From Paenibacillus protaetiae (GTDB taxonomy: Bacteria; Bacillota; Bacilli; Paenibacillales; Paenibacillaceae), in contig NZ_CP035492.1 in the NCBI RefSeq assembly GCF_004135365.1, forward strand, positions 1,550,001 through 1,614,000: a DNA stretch of 64,000 nucleotides, written 5' to 3'. Position numbers and translations under genes: made by a program. The notes under the pieces were generated by a model, which had not been told where the DNA came from, did not search any database, and saw only the letters and a list, made by a program, of their open reading frames with translations. This document shows positions 3,535-9,116 of this stretch, in pieces. Within the stretch, counting starts at the first letter, position 1; the number at the start of each line of letters is the position of its first letter.

Positions 3535-5013
3535 TTATAGAATGATGGCAATAAGGCCGCCGGAACCTTCGTTAATAATCCGGCCCAGCGTTTCTTGCAG
3601 CTTATACCGCGCATTGTCCGGCATTTGAGCGATTTTGCCTTGGATGCCTTCTCTGACGATGGAATGAAGCGAACGGCCGAAGATGTCGGAATCCCAAATT
3701 TTGATCGGGTCGTTCTCGAAATCCTGCATCAGATAACGAACGAGCTCTTCGCTTTGTTTCTCCGTGCCGATAATCGGAGCGAATTCCGATTCCACATCTA
3801 CCCGAATCATATGGATCGAAGGGGCTGTCGCCTTCAGCCTTACGCCAAAGCGCGAGCCATGACGGATAAGCTCCGGCTCATCCAGCGCCATCTCCGCAAG
3901 CGTAGGCGCTGCGATGCCGTAACCGGTTGTTTTCACCATTTCGAGCGCTTCGGCGAAGCGGTCGTATTCGCGTTTGGCATGGGCAAATTCCTGCATCAGC
4001 TGAAGAAGATGATCTTTGCCGCGAATCTCAACGCCTACAACCTCCATCAAGATGCGGTCATACAGCTCATCCGGCGCATACAGATCAATTTCCGCTACGC
4101 CTTGCCCCATGTTCATGCCGCTGAGGCCGGCTTTATAAATAAAATCATAATCCATAAATTGATTGACGACACGGTCGACATCGCGCAGACGGCGAATATC
4201 TTTGACCGTATCGCGAACGGAGTTCTCGTAGTTGCTCCGGAGCCAGTGATTTTCGTTCAGCACCATAACCCAGCTTGGCAGGTTTACGTTCACTTCGTGT
4301 ACCGGGAACTCGTAAAGCACTTCGCGAAGGACGGAGATCACTTCCTCCTCGCCCATCGTGGCTGCGCTTAACGACATCACCGGAATATCGTATTTCTCTT
4401 GAAGCTCGGAGCGGAGCCTTTGGGTTTCTTCGCTGCGCGGGCGTGTAGAGTTGATGACAAGGACAAACGGCTTGCCGACTTCCTTCAGCTCGCCCACTAC
4501 TCTTTCTTCCGCTTCGATGTAGGAGCTTCGCGGAATTTCCGCGATCGTGCCGTCCGTCGTGACGACAACGCCAAGCGTAGAATGCTCTTGAATCACTTTG
4601 CGTGTTCCAATCTCAGCCGCCTCCTGGAACGGAATCGGCTCTTCAAACCATGGCGTCGAAATCATGCGAGGGCCATTTTCGTCCTCGTAGCCTTTTGCCC
4701 CTTCAACCGCGTACCCTACGCAATCCACCAGGCGGACGTTCACGTCCAGCCCGTCGGTAACCCGCAGTTGTACAGCTTGATTGGGTACAAATTTCGGTTC
4801 GGTCGTCATTATCGTTTTGCCAGCGGCGCTTTGCGGGAGCTCATCCACGGCACGGACGCGGTCGGCTTCATTCGAAATATTCGGAAGCACCACCGTCTCC
4901 ATAAACCGTTTAATAAAGGTTGATTTGCCTGTCCGGACCGCTCCGACGACACCGAGGTAAATATCCCCGCCGGTACGTTCGGCTATGTCCTTGAAAATGT
5001 CCACTTTCTCCAC
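3535..5013 (-). CDS. spoIVA: Stage IV sporulation protein A, spore coat morphogenetic ATPase
   Basis: SpoIVA polymerises on the outer forespore membrane in the mother cell and forms the basal layer of the coat; ATP hydrolysis drives the polymerisation. The N-terminal half is a P-loop domain with Walker A GAVRTGKST near residue 22. I chose a GTG start at 5013 because GGGAGGGG lies 7 bases upstream and the product then starts VEKVDIFKD and is 492 residues, the length known for B. subtilis SpoIVA. The extreme C-terminus (GGLIAIIL) is hydrophobic, as needed for attachment through SpoVM. A sigma-E-like promoter lies about 100 bases upstream. Confidence 0.97.
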   Translation of the reverse strand: MEKVDIFKDIAERTGGDIYLGVVGAVRTGKSTFIKRFMETVVLPNISNEADRVRAVDELPQSAAGKTIMTTEPKFVPNQAVQLRVTDGLDVNVRLVDCVGYAVEGAKGYEDENGPRMISTPWFEEPIPFQEAAEIGTRKVIQEHSTLGVVVTTDGTIAEIPRSSYIEAEERVVGELKEVGKPFVLVINSTRPRSEETQRLRSELQEKYDIPVMSLSAATMGEEEVISVLREVLYEFPVHEVNVNLPSWVMVLNENHWLRSNYENSVRDTVKDIRRLRDVDRVVNQFMDYDFIYKAGLSGMNMGQGVAEIDLYAPDELYDRILMEVVGVEIRGKDHLLQLMQEFAHAKREYDRFAEALEMVKTTGYGIAAPTLAEMALDEPELIRHGSRFGVRLKATAPSIHMIRVDVESEFAPIIGTEKQSEELVRYLMQDFENDPIKIWDSDIFGRSLHSIVREGIQGKIAQMPDNARYKLQETLGRIINEGSGGLIAIIL

Positions 5014-5112
5014 TGAATATCCCCTCCCAATTGAAATTCCGGTTCGCCGCCTTCCACCGGACAAGAGGGCAGGCCAGCGACGCAACTCGTACATGCTTTT
5101 TGGACTAGTAAT

Positions 5113-5141
5113 AGCATATGTGCCGTCTCCCCTTTTATGAC
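5113..5141 (-). promoter_or_regulatory. Candidate sigma-E promoter of spoIVA
   Basis: Minus strand GTCATAA (5135-5141), 14-base spacer, CATATGCT (5113-5120). This resembles the sigma-E pattern (KMATATT, 13-15 bases, CATACAMT). SpoIVA is a known sigma-E target, which supports the reading. It implies a 5' leader of roughly 95 bases. Confidence 0.5.
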
Positions 5142-5249
5142 GATTCTTTCTACGAAATCTTTTTGGATTAGCCGGCTTCATTCCCTTCCAAGATTGAGTT
5201 ATATGAGCAAAATAGGCTGGATATGCCGAACAAATGGTGCAAAACGCAA

Positions 5250-5287
5250 CAAAAAAACTCTCTCGCTTAAACTAAAAGCGAGAGAGT
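5250..5287 (-). terminator. Intrinsic terminator of the yphF lipoprotein gene
   Basis: A 12-bp perfect stem (5257-5268 with 5276-5287) followed on the minus strand by a run of seven T, immediately after the lipoprotein gene. It separates that gene from spoIVA. Confidence 0.9.
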
Positions 5288-5300
5288 GATAGAAAGGCTG

Positions 5301-6041
5301 CTAGCCCGCCAAAGCGACAGGCTCGCCGTTTACATAGCGGTAGGGAACCGATTTGACCGGGACATAAAGCGTATTATCGACCAGAAGCGCACGCAAATCC
5401 GTTTCCGGCTGGAACGAGGTTAGCCCGCTTTTTTGGATCGCCTGCATCAAATCAAACGCATAGTCGACGTAGGCGTTACCGTTATCGTCTATCATCGTTT
5501 CGATTTTTTGCCCGGAGTAAACGCTGCGCAGCGTTTTTTCTTTGGTATTCATCTGTTTATAATTAATGCGGTAGAAACCGGGATATACCTGCTCCCCTTT
5601 CGGGACGAGGCCTTGATGTTTGTCCATATATTCGCGGATGGTTTGGTTCAAATCATTTATATATTGCACGGTTATCAAATCCATCAGTTTGACGCGCGGA
5701 GCGGTTTCCTCATCAATGACTATAAAATAATAATGGCCGCCGTTCTCAAATGCAGCGGGAGGGATTTCGCTTAAAAAGCCTTTTTGCTTTAGTTGGCTAA
5801 AATCAATGGCGAACTTCTCATAGCGCGGTGTCTCCATCGTACTGTTTTTGATCGGAAGCAGGCCTGTTTCTTTATAATAATCATCGATTGCCGCCTGTAC
5901 GTTGCGGACAGCGTCTCTTGGCGGTGCCTGATTTTCTTTCAGCTGATTATTCGGGTACATGCAGCCGCCCAGCGATAGAGCGGCAGCCGCCAGCAGCAAG
6001 AGAGGCAGCAGGCGGCGAATCGTCCTGTTATAACATGTCAT
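5301..6041 (-). CDS. yphF: Uncharacterised lipoprotein, YphF position
   Basis: Function unknown. About 246 residues with a basic N-terminus, a leucine/alanine-rich hydrophobic stretch and a lipobox ending LGGC, so a membrane-anchored lipoprotein outside the cytoplasm. The remainder is soluble, rich in charged residues and contains no motif I recognise. GGAGGG lies upstream; either the ATG at 6041 or the TTG at 6044 could initiate. The symbol is assigned mainly by position: in B. subtilis, yphF lies between yphE and spoIVA and also encodes a lipoprotein-like product. Here three extra genes separate it from yphE. Confidence 0.65.
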   Translation of the reverse strand: MTCYNRTIRRLLPLLLLAAAALSLGGCMYPNNQLKENQAPPRDAVRNVQAAIDDYYKETGLLPIKNSTMETPRYEKFAIDFSQLKQKGFLSEIPPAAFENGGHYYFIVIDEETAPRVKLMDLITVQYINDLNQTIREYMDKHQGLVPKGEQVYPGFYRINYKQMNTKEKTLRSVYSGQKIETMIDDNGNAYVDYAFDLMQAIQKSGLTSFQPETDLRALLVDNTLYVPVKSVPYRYVNGEPVALAG

Positions 6042-6098
6042 CAATTGGGCTTGTCCCTCCGTATCCATCTGACTGTCCATCATCGTTGTGCCGTCCGG

Positions 6099-6443
6099 TC
6101 ACCAAAGCGAGTCATCCTCCCGCGCCTGGGCAAGCTTCTTTAATACCGCAGCGCGCAGCGGATCCAGCGGCACATTCACAACCGCATTCCCTTGTACCCT
6201 CGCCTGACAGGATAACCGTTCGCAGCTATCCGCTCCGGCAGCAAGCTTATTACGTTCCTGCTCCCCCATCGGCAGCAATCGGCTTCCCGGCTCAACCGTT
6301 ACTTTACACATAAAACAGGCAGCTTTGCCTCCGCAACGGGTCCGAATCGGCACATGAGCACGCCTGGCCGCATCTAATAACGTTGTGCCGGGACGCACCT
6401 TCACCGTAATGCCGGCTGGCATAAACGTCACTTCACAGTTCAA
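6099..6443 (-). CDS. [2Fe-2S] ferredoxin, Cx5Cx2C type
   Basis: Small electron carrier of about 114 residues. The cluster ligands are visible as RCGGKAACFMC (C-x5-C-x2-C) and a distant cysteine in LSCQAR, on a beta-grasp fold beginning VTFMPAGITVKV. The preferred start is TTG at 6443 with GCAGGTGG just upstream; the frame also stays open further upstream inside the preceding gene. It overlaps the end of the nucleotidyltransferase-like gene by 11 bases, so the two are probably co-translated. The redox partner is unknown. The x5 spacing is that of adrenodoxin-like ferredoxins, unlike the second ferredoxin at 7079-7375. Confidence 0.85.
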   Translation of the reverse strand: MNCEVTFMPAGITVKVRPGTTLLDAARRAHVPIRTRCGGKAACFMCKVTVEPGSRLLPMGEQERNKLAAGADSCERLSCQARVQGNAVVNVPLDPLRAAVLKKLAQAREDDSLW

Positions 6444-7038
6444 GCCAGCCACCTGCTTCCCGCTTCTCCAGCCAGCTGCGGACGACTGCAACAGTCTGTT
6501 CCGCAAAGCCGTTGCGGCGTTCAATCGCCTTCATCACTGCCCGTTCAGCAGCATCATCGCCGATGGCTTCCACAATCGCTTGAACTCTGTCCATCCTGCC
6601 GCGAAGCGCATTAAACCACAGTTCATGCGCCAGAGGTACAACCGGCACAACGACATCATCCGCAAGTTTAACTTCAAGCGCGTGCGGATATAACAAATCA
6701 TGAACTTCCGTCTTATAGACGCAGCCGTGCGCCGTCACCGAAAAACCGCCAACCAGCTCTACTTCCACTTCATGAATGATGCAGCAGCCAAGCATGGAAC
6801 GGTACATGGCGGTTACGCTAAGCTCCGGCTCGCTTACTCGCGTTTCCCGGCTAAGCCGTTCATATAACAGCCCGAAATCATCGTCATCCGCATATAAATC
6901 AACATCATTTGGCGGCTGGGAAAGCCGGATTCCCCGCAGCGCCAGCCCGGCGCTGCCCCCGACCACCCAGCTGCGGTCCCGGCCTAATGCCCGGGCAGCA
7001 GCGGTCAGCGCCTGGGCTATATTCGTATTTGGCAGCAT
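6433..7038 (-). CDS. Nucleotidyltransferase-like protein between two ferredoxins
   Basis: 201 residues. Residues 27-31 read GGSAG and are followed by NDVDLYADDDD (about 44-54), matching the glycine-serine and acidic metal-binding motif of the DNA-polymerase-beta / MNT nucleotidyltransferase superfamily. The rest (KLADDVVVPVVPLAHELWFNAL) resembles the helical part of AbiEii/MNT-like proteins. Such enzymes transfer a nucleotide to protein, RNA or a small molecule; the target here is unknown. No antitoxin-like partner is adjacent, which argues against a simple toxin-antitoxin pair. GAAGGAAG lies about 10 bases before the ATG. Its place between two ferredoxin genes is unusual. Confidence 0.65.
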   Translation of the reverse strand: MLPNTNIAQALTAAARALGRDRSWVVGGSAGLALRGIRLSQPPNDVDLYADDDDFGLLYERLSRETRVSEPELSVTAMYRSMLGCCIIHEVEVELVGGFSVTAHGCVYKTEVHDLLYPHALEVKLADDVVVPVVPLAHELWFNALRGRMDRVQAIVEAIGDDAAERAVMKAIERRNGFAEQTVAVVRSWLEKREAGGWLEL

Positions 7039-7078
7039 TTACGTACACTTCCTTCAATCGTTGCAGCAGCCGGCATCG

Positions 7079-7375
7079 TTAAAAATAAGGTTTATTTACG
7101 GCTACAATCCGCTGAGCGCCTTGCTTTACAACCGCTTGGCAGGCAAGCCTGTAGCCCTGTTCGAATTCTTCCGGCTCCAGCCGGTCCCACTCTTCATCTG
7201 TTATGCCGTCCAAATATTCGTTCCCTTCCGAAACGAAACAGCGGCATTTGGCGCAAGTGCCTTTCTTACACATGTGGCCCCAATCCACTTTATACTTAAT
7301 CGCATGCTTCAGAATCGACAAGCCGGGTTCCGGCTCTACGACCGCGAACTTGGTTCTTCCTCTCAATTCAATCAT
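7079..7375 (-). CDS. [2Fe-2S] ferredoxin, plant type Cx4Cx2C
   Basis: 98 residues. The cluster ligands are CKKGTCAKC (C-x4-C-x2-C) plus a distal cysteine in YRLACQAV, the plant-type ferredoxin arrangement, followed by a short C-terminal strand. AAGGAG lies 9 bases before the ATG. It starts 21 bases after the end of the small yphE-like gene and precedes the nucleotidyltransferase-like gene by 40 bases, so all are probably one transcript. No reductase or oxygenase that would use it is inside the window. Confidence 0.88.
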   Translation of the reverse strand: MIELRGRTKFAVVEPEPGLSILKHAIKYKVDWGHMCKKGTCAKCRCFVSEGNEYLDGITDEEWDRLEPEEFEQGYRLACQAVVKQGAQRIVAVNKPYF

Positions 7376-7396: not shown

Positions 7397-7576
7397 CTAT
7401 AAAATAGAGAAAAAGCCGTAAATAAAGCCAAAAACAAGCATAACAAAAGCAATAAACGATAAAATACCCTTCATGATCCCTCTAGTTTTGACACGGGCAA
7501 ACGTAATTAAAAAGGCTGCAACGGCCATCAAGCCGATGCCGATAAAAGAAACCCACATCTTTGTCATTCCATCCAT
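7397..7576 (-). CDS. yphE: Small two-helix membrane protein, DUF2768 / YphE
   Basis: 59 residues, easily missed by length cut-offs. Two hydrophobic helices (about 8-26 and 37-57) are separated by the basic turn ARVKTRG, so it is an integral membrane protein with a small cytoplasmic loop. It starts MDGMTKMWV at an ATG with AGGAGA 11 bases upstream; an in-frame ATG three codons later is a weaker alternative. Position (downstream of gpsA, on the same strand, towards spoIVA) and size match B. subtilis YphE of family DUF2768. Function is unknown. Confidence 0.75.
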   Translation of the reverse strand: MDGMTKMWVSFIGIGLMAVAAFLITFARVKTRGIMKGILSFIAFVMLVFGFIYGFFSIL

Positions 7577-7645
7577 CGAGGCGATCTTCTCCTAATCTGT
7601 GAAATTCTCCTATTGGCAAGGATCACCTTATTATAGCATCGTTAC

Positions 7646-7678
7646 AAAAAAAGGACAAAAGCAGCAAAGAATCTGCTT
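7646..7678 (-). terminator. Possible terminator after spoVIF
   Basis: AAGCAG (minus strand) pairs with CTGCTT across 8 bases and is followed a few bases later by a run of seven T. The stem is short, so this is tentative. Confidence 0.35.
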
Positions 7679-8088: not shown

Positions 8089-9116
8089 CTATCCGATCGG
8101 CTCGATTTCATGCGTCCGCAGCCGGCCCATCAGGCGCGATACGGCCGTCCGGGGTTCCAACTGCTCGAACAGCACTTGATAAAGCTGCGCTGTGATCGGC
8201 ATTTCAACATCATATTGCTTCGCCAGTTCGAATGCCGCATTTGTTGTGCGTACGCCTTCAACGACCATGCCCATCCGCTCCAGCACCTGGTCAAGCGGAG
8301 CGCCGTCCGCCAGCATGGAGCCAGCCCGCCAGTTGCGGCTATGCTTGCTTGTACAGGTCACTACAAGATCCCCGACGCCGGCTAATCCGGCGAATGTCAG
8401 CGGATTAGCGCCCATCGCGCCGCCAAGGCGGCCGATTTCGGCAAGGCCTCTTGTAAGCAAAGCGGCTTTGGCGTTGTCGCCAAAACCTAACCCGTCGGAT
8501 AAGCCGGCGCCTAAAGCGATAATGTTTTTGATCGCGCCGGCTACTTCTACGCCAATGACATCCGGATTGGTGTACACGCGGAAATACGGATTCATAAAAG
8601 CATCCTGCGCCTGCTCCGCAACGGACAGCTCTTCAGCGGCTACAACCACGGTTGTCGGCTGCTTGCGGATAACTTCCTCCGCATGGCTTGGGCCAGACAA
8701 AGCGGCGATATGGCTAACCGGGCGGTTCAGCTCTTCTGCCAGCACGACCGTCATCCGTTTGAGCGTGCCTGTCTCAAAACCTTTCGTCGCATGCACGCAT
8801 AACGTAGCTTCATCCATATGGGGGCAGCCTGACGGGCAACATCACGCATCGCTGAGGAAGGCGAAACAAACAAAGCAAGCTCCGCGCCAGCCAGCGCATC
8901 CTCCATGCGGGTTGTCGCCTGAATGCCGTCCGCTAGACGGATCCCCGGCAAAAACTTCCCGTTCTCATGCTTCTCGTTGATTTCCTCCGCCTGCTGCGGA
9001 TTCCGCGTCCAAAGCTTCACTTCATAACCGTTGTCGGCAAGCACCGAAGCCAGCGCAGTTCCCCAGCTTCCAGCGACAAGCACGGCAGCGCGGCGTTCCT
9101 TCCCGTTTCTGTTCAA
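8089..9116 (-). pseudogene. gpsA: Glycerol-3-phosphate dehydrogenase GpsA, frameshifted as read
   Basis: GpsA reduces dihydroxyacetone phosphate to sn-glycerol 3-phosphate for phospholipid synthesis, just upstream of the acyltransferase PlsY. The N-terminal frame (start TTG at 9116) runs to RQAAP and the rest continues in another frame as HMDEATLCVHATKGFETG through NIIALGAGLSDGLGFGDNAKA to the stop at 8089. Adding one C to the run of five at 8820-8824 (G on the plus strand) restores a 342-codon protein, the usual length. The nucleotide-binding loop reads LVAGSWG instead of the usual LGAGSWG. Since gpsA is normally essential in this group, a sequencing error is more likely than a dead gene. 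Confidence 0.85.

Follow-up and report, generated by a model that had tools for sequence, protein, structure and literature searches.

A conserved operon of two ferredoxins and a nucleotidyltransferase-like protein in the gpsA-spoIVA region of Paenibacillus protaetiae and its relatives

Between the homologues of yphE and yphF in Paenibacillus protaetiae, three genes on the minus strand (7375-6099 of the window, the whole analysed stretch of 64,000 nucleotides) encode two [2Fe-2S] ferredoxins, FdxA and FdxB, on either side of a nucleotidyltransferase-like protein, NT. They form part of a conserved operon that is built from known kinds of protein and has no description in the papers searched, in which nothing relevant was found on a ferredoxin with spoIVA, on TM1012, or on a nucleotidyltransferase with a ferredoxin in Paenibacillus. 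We consider it fairly probable that the operon is a vertically inherited sigma-A unit, that its ferredoxins are older and its nucleotidyltransferase a later and active member, and that co-expression, not redox control, is what links them. The gpsA-spoIVA region thereby gains a conserved operon that has apparently not been studied, and the locus defines a family of nucleotidyltransferases spanning the order, whose member in the window has no Pfam match, even at an E-value of 1.

Layout, transcription and conservation

A preliminary description of this DNA had recognized two ferredoxins of different ligand spacing around a protein with a GGS...DVD motif, and had proposed that the trio is an insertion between yphE and yphF that is read as one transcript. 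The ferredoxins, their ligands and the motif are as it had them (Table 1). We take the yphE homologue to be a DUF2768 protein by analogy with the B. subtilis locus (see PMC13068155) and not from a Pfam scan.

Table 1. Features of the operon in the P. protaetiae window
Feature	Position	Strand	Details	Basis
Probable sigma-A promoter	7630..7658	-	TTGTCC, 17 nt, extended -10 TGCTATAAT; 5' of yphE	scan
yphE homologue (presumed DUF2768 small membrane protein)	7397..7576	-	first gene of the predicted transcript	translation; same place in relatives
FdxA, 98-aa plant-type [2Fe-2S] ferredoxin	7079..7375	-	C-x4-C-x2-C-x34-C	PF00111, 41 bits
NT, 201-aa TM1012-like nucleotidyltransferase	6433..7038	-	GGS, D45xD47, E94	profile, model, conservation
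FdxB, 114-aa adrenodoxin-type [2Fe-2S] ferredoxin	6099..6443	-	C-x5-C-x2-C-x32-C	PF00111, 47.6 bits
yphF homologue (predicted lipoprotein)	5301..6083	-	last gene of the predicted transcript; kept between FdxB and SpoIVA	
Intrinsic terminator ending the transcript	5257..5287	-	12-bp stem, then T run	

The genes are closely packed, with 40 nt between FdxA and NT and 15 nt between FdxB and yphF in the window. The 141-aa FdxB reading frame listed from 6524 is over-extended, and from its probable start, TTG 6443, the gene shares 11 nt with NT. Such an overlap between NT and fdxB is seen in 62 of 94 loci, by 4 nt in 33 of these; NT probably shares a transcript with FdxB and is often coupled to it in translation. 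In 68 of 75 relatives an extended -10 precedes the yphE homologue, where single-base shuffles average 4.6; the number of promoter-like sites in the window alone is no greater than expected by chance. The recurrent extended -10, together with the terminator after yphF, suggests from sequence that yphE to yphF constitute one vegetative transcript, as the preliminary description had supposed from the short gaps and overlaps, and the unit yphE-fdxA-NT-fdxB-yphF would be transcribed by sigma-A in vegetative cells. A sporulation-sigma promoter ahead of yphE was considered and rejected, sporulation-sigma-type motifs in this region of the 75 relatives being as common as in the shuffles or rarer.

Gene order was compared in 29 close loci and then in 80 loci from named genomes (Paenibacillus, Cohnella, Thermobacillus and others), the latter sample having been drawn with the NT profile, so that it shows the companions of NT and not its frequency. 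The recurrent order is Der-PlsY-GpsA-SpoVIF-YphE-FdxA-NT-FdxB-YphF-SpoIVA. FdxA-NT-FdxB is present in 73 of these 80 NT-bearing Paenibacillaceae loci, 67 of them with all flanking genes, five without a detected YphE and one at a contig end, and NT is thus not a gene that usually stands alone. The trio also occurs in representatives of f2, f6, f7 and f9, families of the taxonomic order to which Paenibacillus belongs. The recurrent order and the invariant ligand and catalytic residues far exceed chance. The flanking genes are conserved in order just as much as the trio, so that stable order alone does not prove a joint function of the three. The locus is probably a stable, vertically inherited unit of this taxonomic order within the syntenic gpsA-spoIVA region. 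A mobile insertion of the trio was rejected, because the genes sit at orthologous places across several families of the order and have no plasmid or phage matches.

Fold and active site of NT

A profile of 28 NT orthologues has a single significant solved relative, TM1012 (E 5e-10), a putative nucleotidyltransferase of Thermotoga maritima (2fcl, 2ewr and 4hx0). The AlphaFold model of NT, with a pLDDT of 95, aligns with 2fcl at Z 18.6 in VIA-align, with which Foldseek agrees, and the two share their fold over 155 residues (rmsd 2.4, 20% identity), with the G-S...DxD and vExxG motifs in register. TM1012 differs in being about 40 residues shorter and in carrying TGS where NT has GGS, and it is itself only a putative enzyme. 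Further fold matches are MenT1 (Z 15.3), MenT3 (Z 11.7) and ANT(2'')-Ia (Z 10.7), and the model has the core fold of the nucleotidyltransferase superfamily (pol beta-type or MNT fold).

The superfamily motif of G-S, DxD and a third acid is complete. G27-G28-S29, D45, D47 and E94 are invariant in 97 sequences, residue 46 being valine in the window protein, and the catalytic acids, whose loss in relatives would have told against the earlier assignment, are retained throughout. E94 is the putative third catalytic acid by its position. The C-terminal motif H-E-x2-F-N-x2-R-x-R-x-D-R is likewise invariant in these sequences, among which no cysteine is conserved. Given the TM1012-like fold and the invariant GGS, DxD and Glu94, NT is probably an active nucleotidyltransferase, a reading based on conservation and a predicted model, and probably a housekeeping one. 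It may be a metal-dependent enzyme that passes an NMP to a cytosolic acceptor, in which D45 and D47 would bind the metal, E94 would serve as the third acid and GGS would bind the triphosphate. The gene is under purifying selection (median dN/dS of 0.17 in 11 close pairs), and the possibility of a pseudogene was rejected on this evidence and on the invariant motif. At one locus (L198, genome G176, 4219-4729) NT is broken into two frames beside an intact FdxB.

The fold is also shared with the aminoglycoside-2''-adenylyltransferases, represented by ANT(2'')-Ia and PF10706. That family matches 26 of the 28 NT orthologues weakly, with a best E-value of 8e-5, and the window protein does not match it at an E-value of 1. 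NT is chromosomal and order-wide, in contrast to ANT(2'')-Ia, which is an acquired resistance gene.

The ferredoxins and the age of the parts

Both ferredoxins score above the PF00111 (Fer2) gathering cut-off of 21 bits. The cluster ligands are C36-x4-C41-x2-C44...C79 in FdxA and C37-x5-C43-x2-C46...C79 in FdxB; the four cysteines are invariant in 97 sequences of the former and 98 of the latter. The profile of FdxB finds 1i7h (2e-11) and 3zyy (1e-8). Its C-x5-C-x2-C spacing is shared with Isc/adrenodoxin-type ferredoxins and with the N-terminal [2Fe-2S] domain of RACo-type corrinoid activators (3zyy), but FdxB is a stand-alone protein of 114 aa with its own conserved tail, and it is linked to spoIVA and not to isc or corrinoid genes. 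FdxB and FdxA may pass single electrons to reductases or oxygenases whose genes lie elsewhere.

FdxB-like matches in other classes of the phylum (L219-L224) are nearly all N-terminal in open frames of about 600-690 aa, which is consistent with RACo-type corrinoid activators; G558 (L219) instead has a stand-alone frame of 119 aa.

The flanking genes of the window are those of the yphE-yphF-spoIVA region in B. subtilis and Parageobacillus (PMC13068155), both of which lack the ferredoxins and NT between yphE and yphF. Against B. subtilis all three genes therefore appear inserted, as the preliminary description had it, but that account holds for NT and not for the ferredoxins. Among the sampled genomes of other Bacilli families, 48 have FdxB, and in 36 of these its gene immediately precedes spoIVA on the same strand. 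In family f32, 14 genomes have FdxA and FdxB adjoining at the locus, with gaps of 20-55 bp between the matches and without NT, and a genome of another family has only FdxA there. No strong orthologue of NT was found outside the order of Paenibacillus. Since many other Bacilli have FdxB at this place, NT alone has the look of an insertion on the available sequences, and the trio seems inserted only when B. subtilis is the reference. FdxB, and in part of the Bacilli FdxA as well, would be the older occupants of the locus; NT would have come to lie between them in the order's ancestor, and the simplest account of presence and position would have Bacillus-type genomes lose, or never possess, the ferredoxins. 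B. subtilis is a misleading reference here, as it has no copy of the ferredoxin that lies next to spoIVA in many spore-forming Bacilli.

Functional links and neighbouring genes

The linkage to spoIVA raises the question of whether the ferredoxins, and perhaps NT, serve spore formation together with YphF and SpoIVA. All 48 FdxB carriers outside Paenibacillaceae possess SpoIVA, compared with 131 of 183 genomes (p 1e-8, uncorrected for kinship). In B. subtilis, yphF lies between spoIVA and yphE and is sporulation-related (PMC13068155), and yphF mutants reportedly form defective spores, as cited in that article. The restriction of FdxB to SpoIVA carriers hints at a spore-related role, which a vegetative promoter alone leaves unexplained. 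A sporulation module nevertheless appears unlikely to us: the motif before yphE is sigma-A-like, YphF was detected in exponentially growing Parageobacillus cells (PMC13068155), 83 of the 131 SpoIVA-bearing genomes outside the family have no FdxB, and the linkage to spoIVA may be syntenic inertia.

Whether the ferredoxins and NT belong together was assessed in 197 Paenibacillaceae genomes. FdxB is present in 192, NT in 153 (one weak match set aside) and FdxA at the locus in 116, counts in which a few divergent copies may be missed, as absence was called by single-sequence search for NT and by a strict cut-off for the ferredoxins. Two FdxA matches elsewhere in the genome were set aside; they are FdxA-like ferredoxins of genomes that lack FdxA at the locus (G104:C1:1542060-1542344 and G128:C2:500971-501255). 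The presence of FdxA and that of NT are independent (both in 93 genomes, FdxA only in 23, NT only in 60, neither in 21; Fisher p 0.38, related genomes being taken as independent). Sixty genomes thus have NT and no FdxA at the locus, whole genera retain NT-FdxB but not FdxA, two Thermobacillus-type genomes have FdxA-NT without FdxB, and 22 genomes have both ferredoxins without NT; in NT-less genomes (G008, G016, G021, G022, G039 and others) FdxA stands beside FdxB with match gaps of 24-51 bp. No fusion of NT to a ferredoxin was found in 99 loci, several of them chosen for unusually long open frames, and the distant paralogues of NT have no ferredoxin neighbour in 12 of 12 loci. A functional module of ferredoxins and a nucleotidyltransferase is not borne out by these observations. 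The paralogues (L186-L197, each at about 4800-5600, L190 at 2100-2600) comprise second copies within a single genus of the order and others dispersed among further families of the phylum, and they also lack a spoIVA neighbour.

NT and FdxB are adjacent nearly everywhere and often overlap, which is also what would be expected of partners. Their co-occurrence carries little information, because FdxB is nearly universal in the family. They could be a pair, not described before and coupled in translation, whose nucleotidyltransferase is specific to the order and either modifies a ferredoxin confined to spore formers or is controlled by it. We rate this as quite unlikely; if true, it would connect electron transfer with nucleotidylation in a new way. 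The more specific proposal that NT adjusts electron transfer by nucleotidylating FdxB (or FdxA), in the manner of GlnE or GlnD acting on protein targets, has a slim chance of being correct. A neighbouring protein target would explain the stable, overlapping pair, but the hydroxyl residues of FdxB all fall below 97% identity in 98 sequences, and FdxB is kept at the locus in many Bacilli that have no NT.

Redox-gated nucleotidylation, which had been offered as a speculative idea and in which reduced FdxA or FdxB would dock on NT and switch the transferase on or off, is highly improbable. The habitual adjacency and overlap of NT and FdxB would suit it and no other observation speaks for it, and against it stand the lack of a conserved cysteine in NT, the independence of NT from FdxA, the genomes with NT and no FdxB or with both ferredoxins and no NT, and the ferredoxin-free paralogues. 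We see equally little prospect for NT as a one-time toxin of MenT type that has lost its antitoxin and been domesticated as an RNA nucleotidyltransferase for tRNA ends: MenT1 is the second-best fold match after TM1012, but this fold is common to many small-molecule transferases (ANT(2'')-Ia, LnuA), and NT is a single-copy, vertically inherited gene without plasmid or phage relatives. Unlike the MenT1 and MenT3 toxins and MenAT or AbiE-type systems, it has no antitoxin gene beside it; it lies at a conserved chromosomal position where its neighbours in nearly all loci are the ferredoxins, YphE and YphF. Returning to the reading that we favour, the link between NT and the ferredoxins would be one of co-expression and not of redox control of catalysis.

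Two further observations concern neighbouring genes. In the window, gpsA (8089-9116, minus strand) is interrupted by a frameshift near 8820-8826, where five C follow one another, and both halves match a single intact GpsA from a relative; because gpsA is usually essential, the frameshift is possibly a base-calling or assembly error. The spoIVA reading frame (3535-5181, minus strand) is listed with 548 aa. Alignments with its homologues mostly begin near residue 50, which makes the GTG that gives VEKVDIF at residue 57 the probable start.
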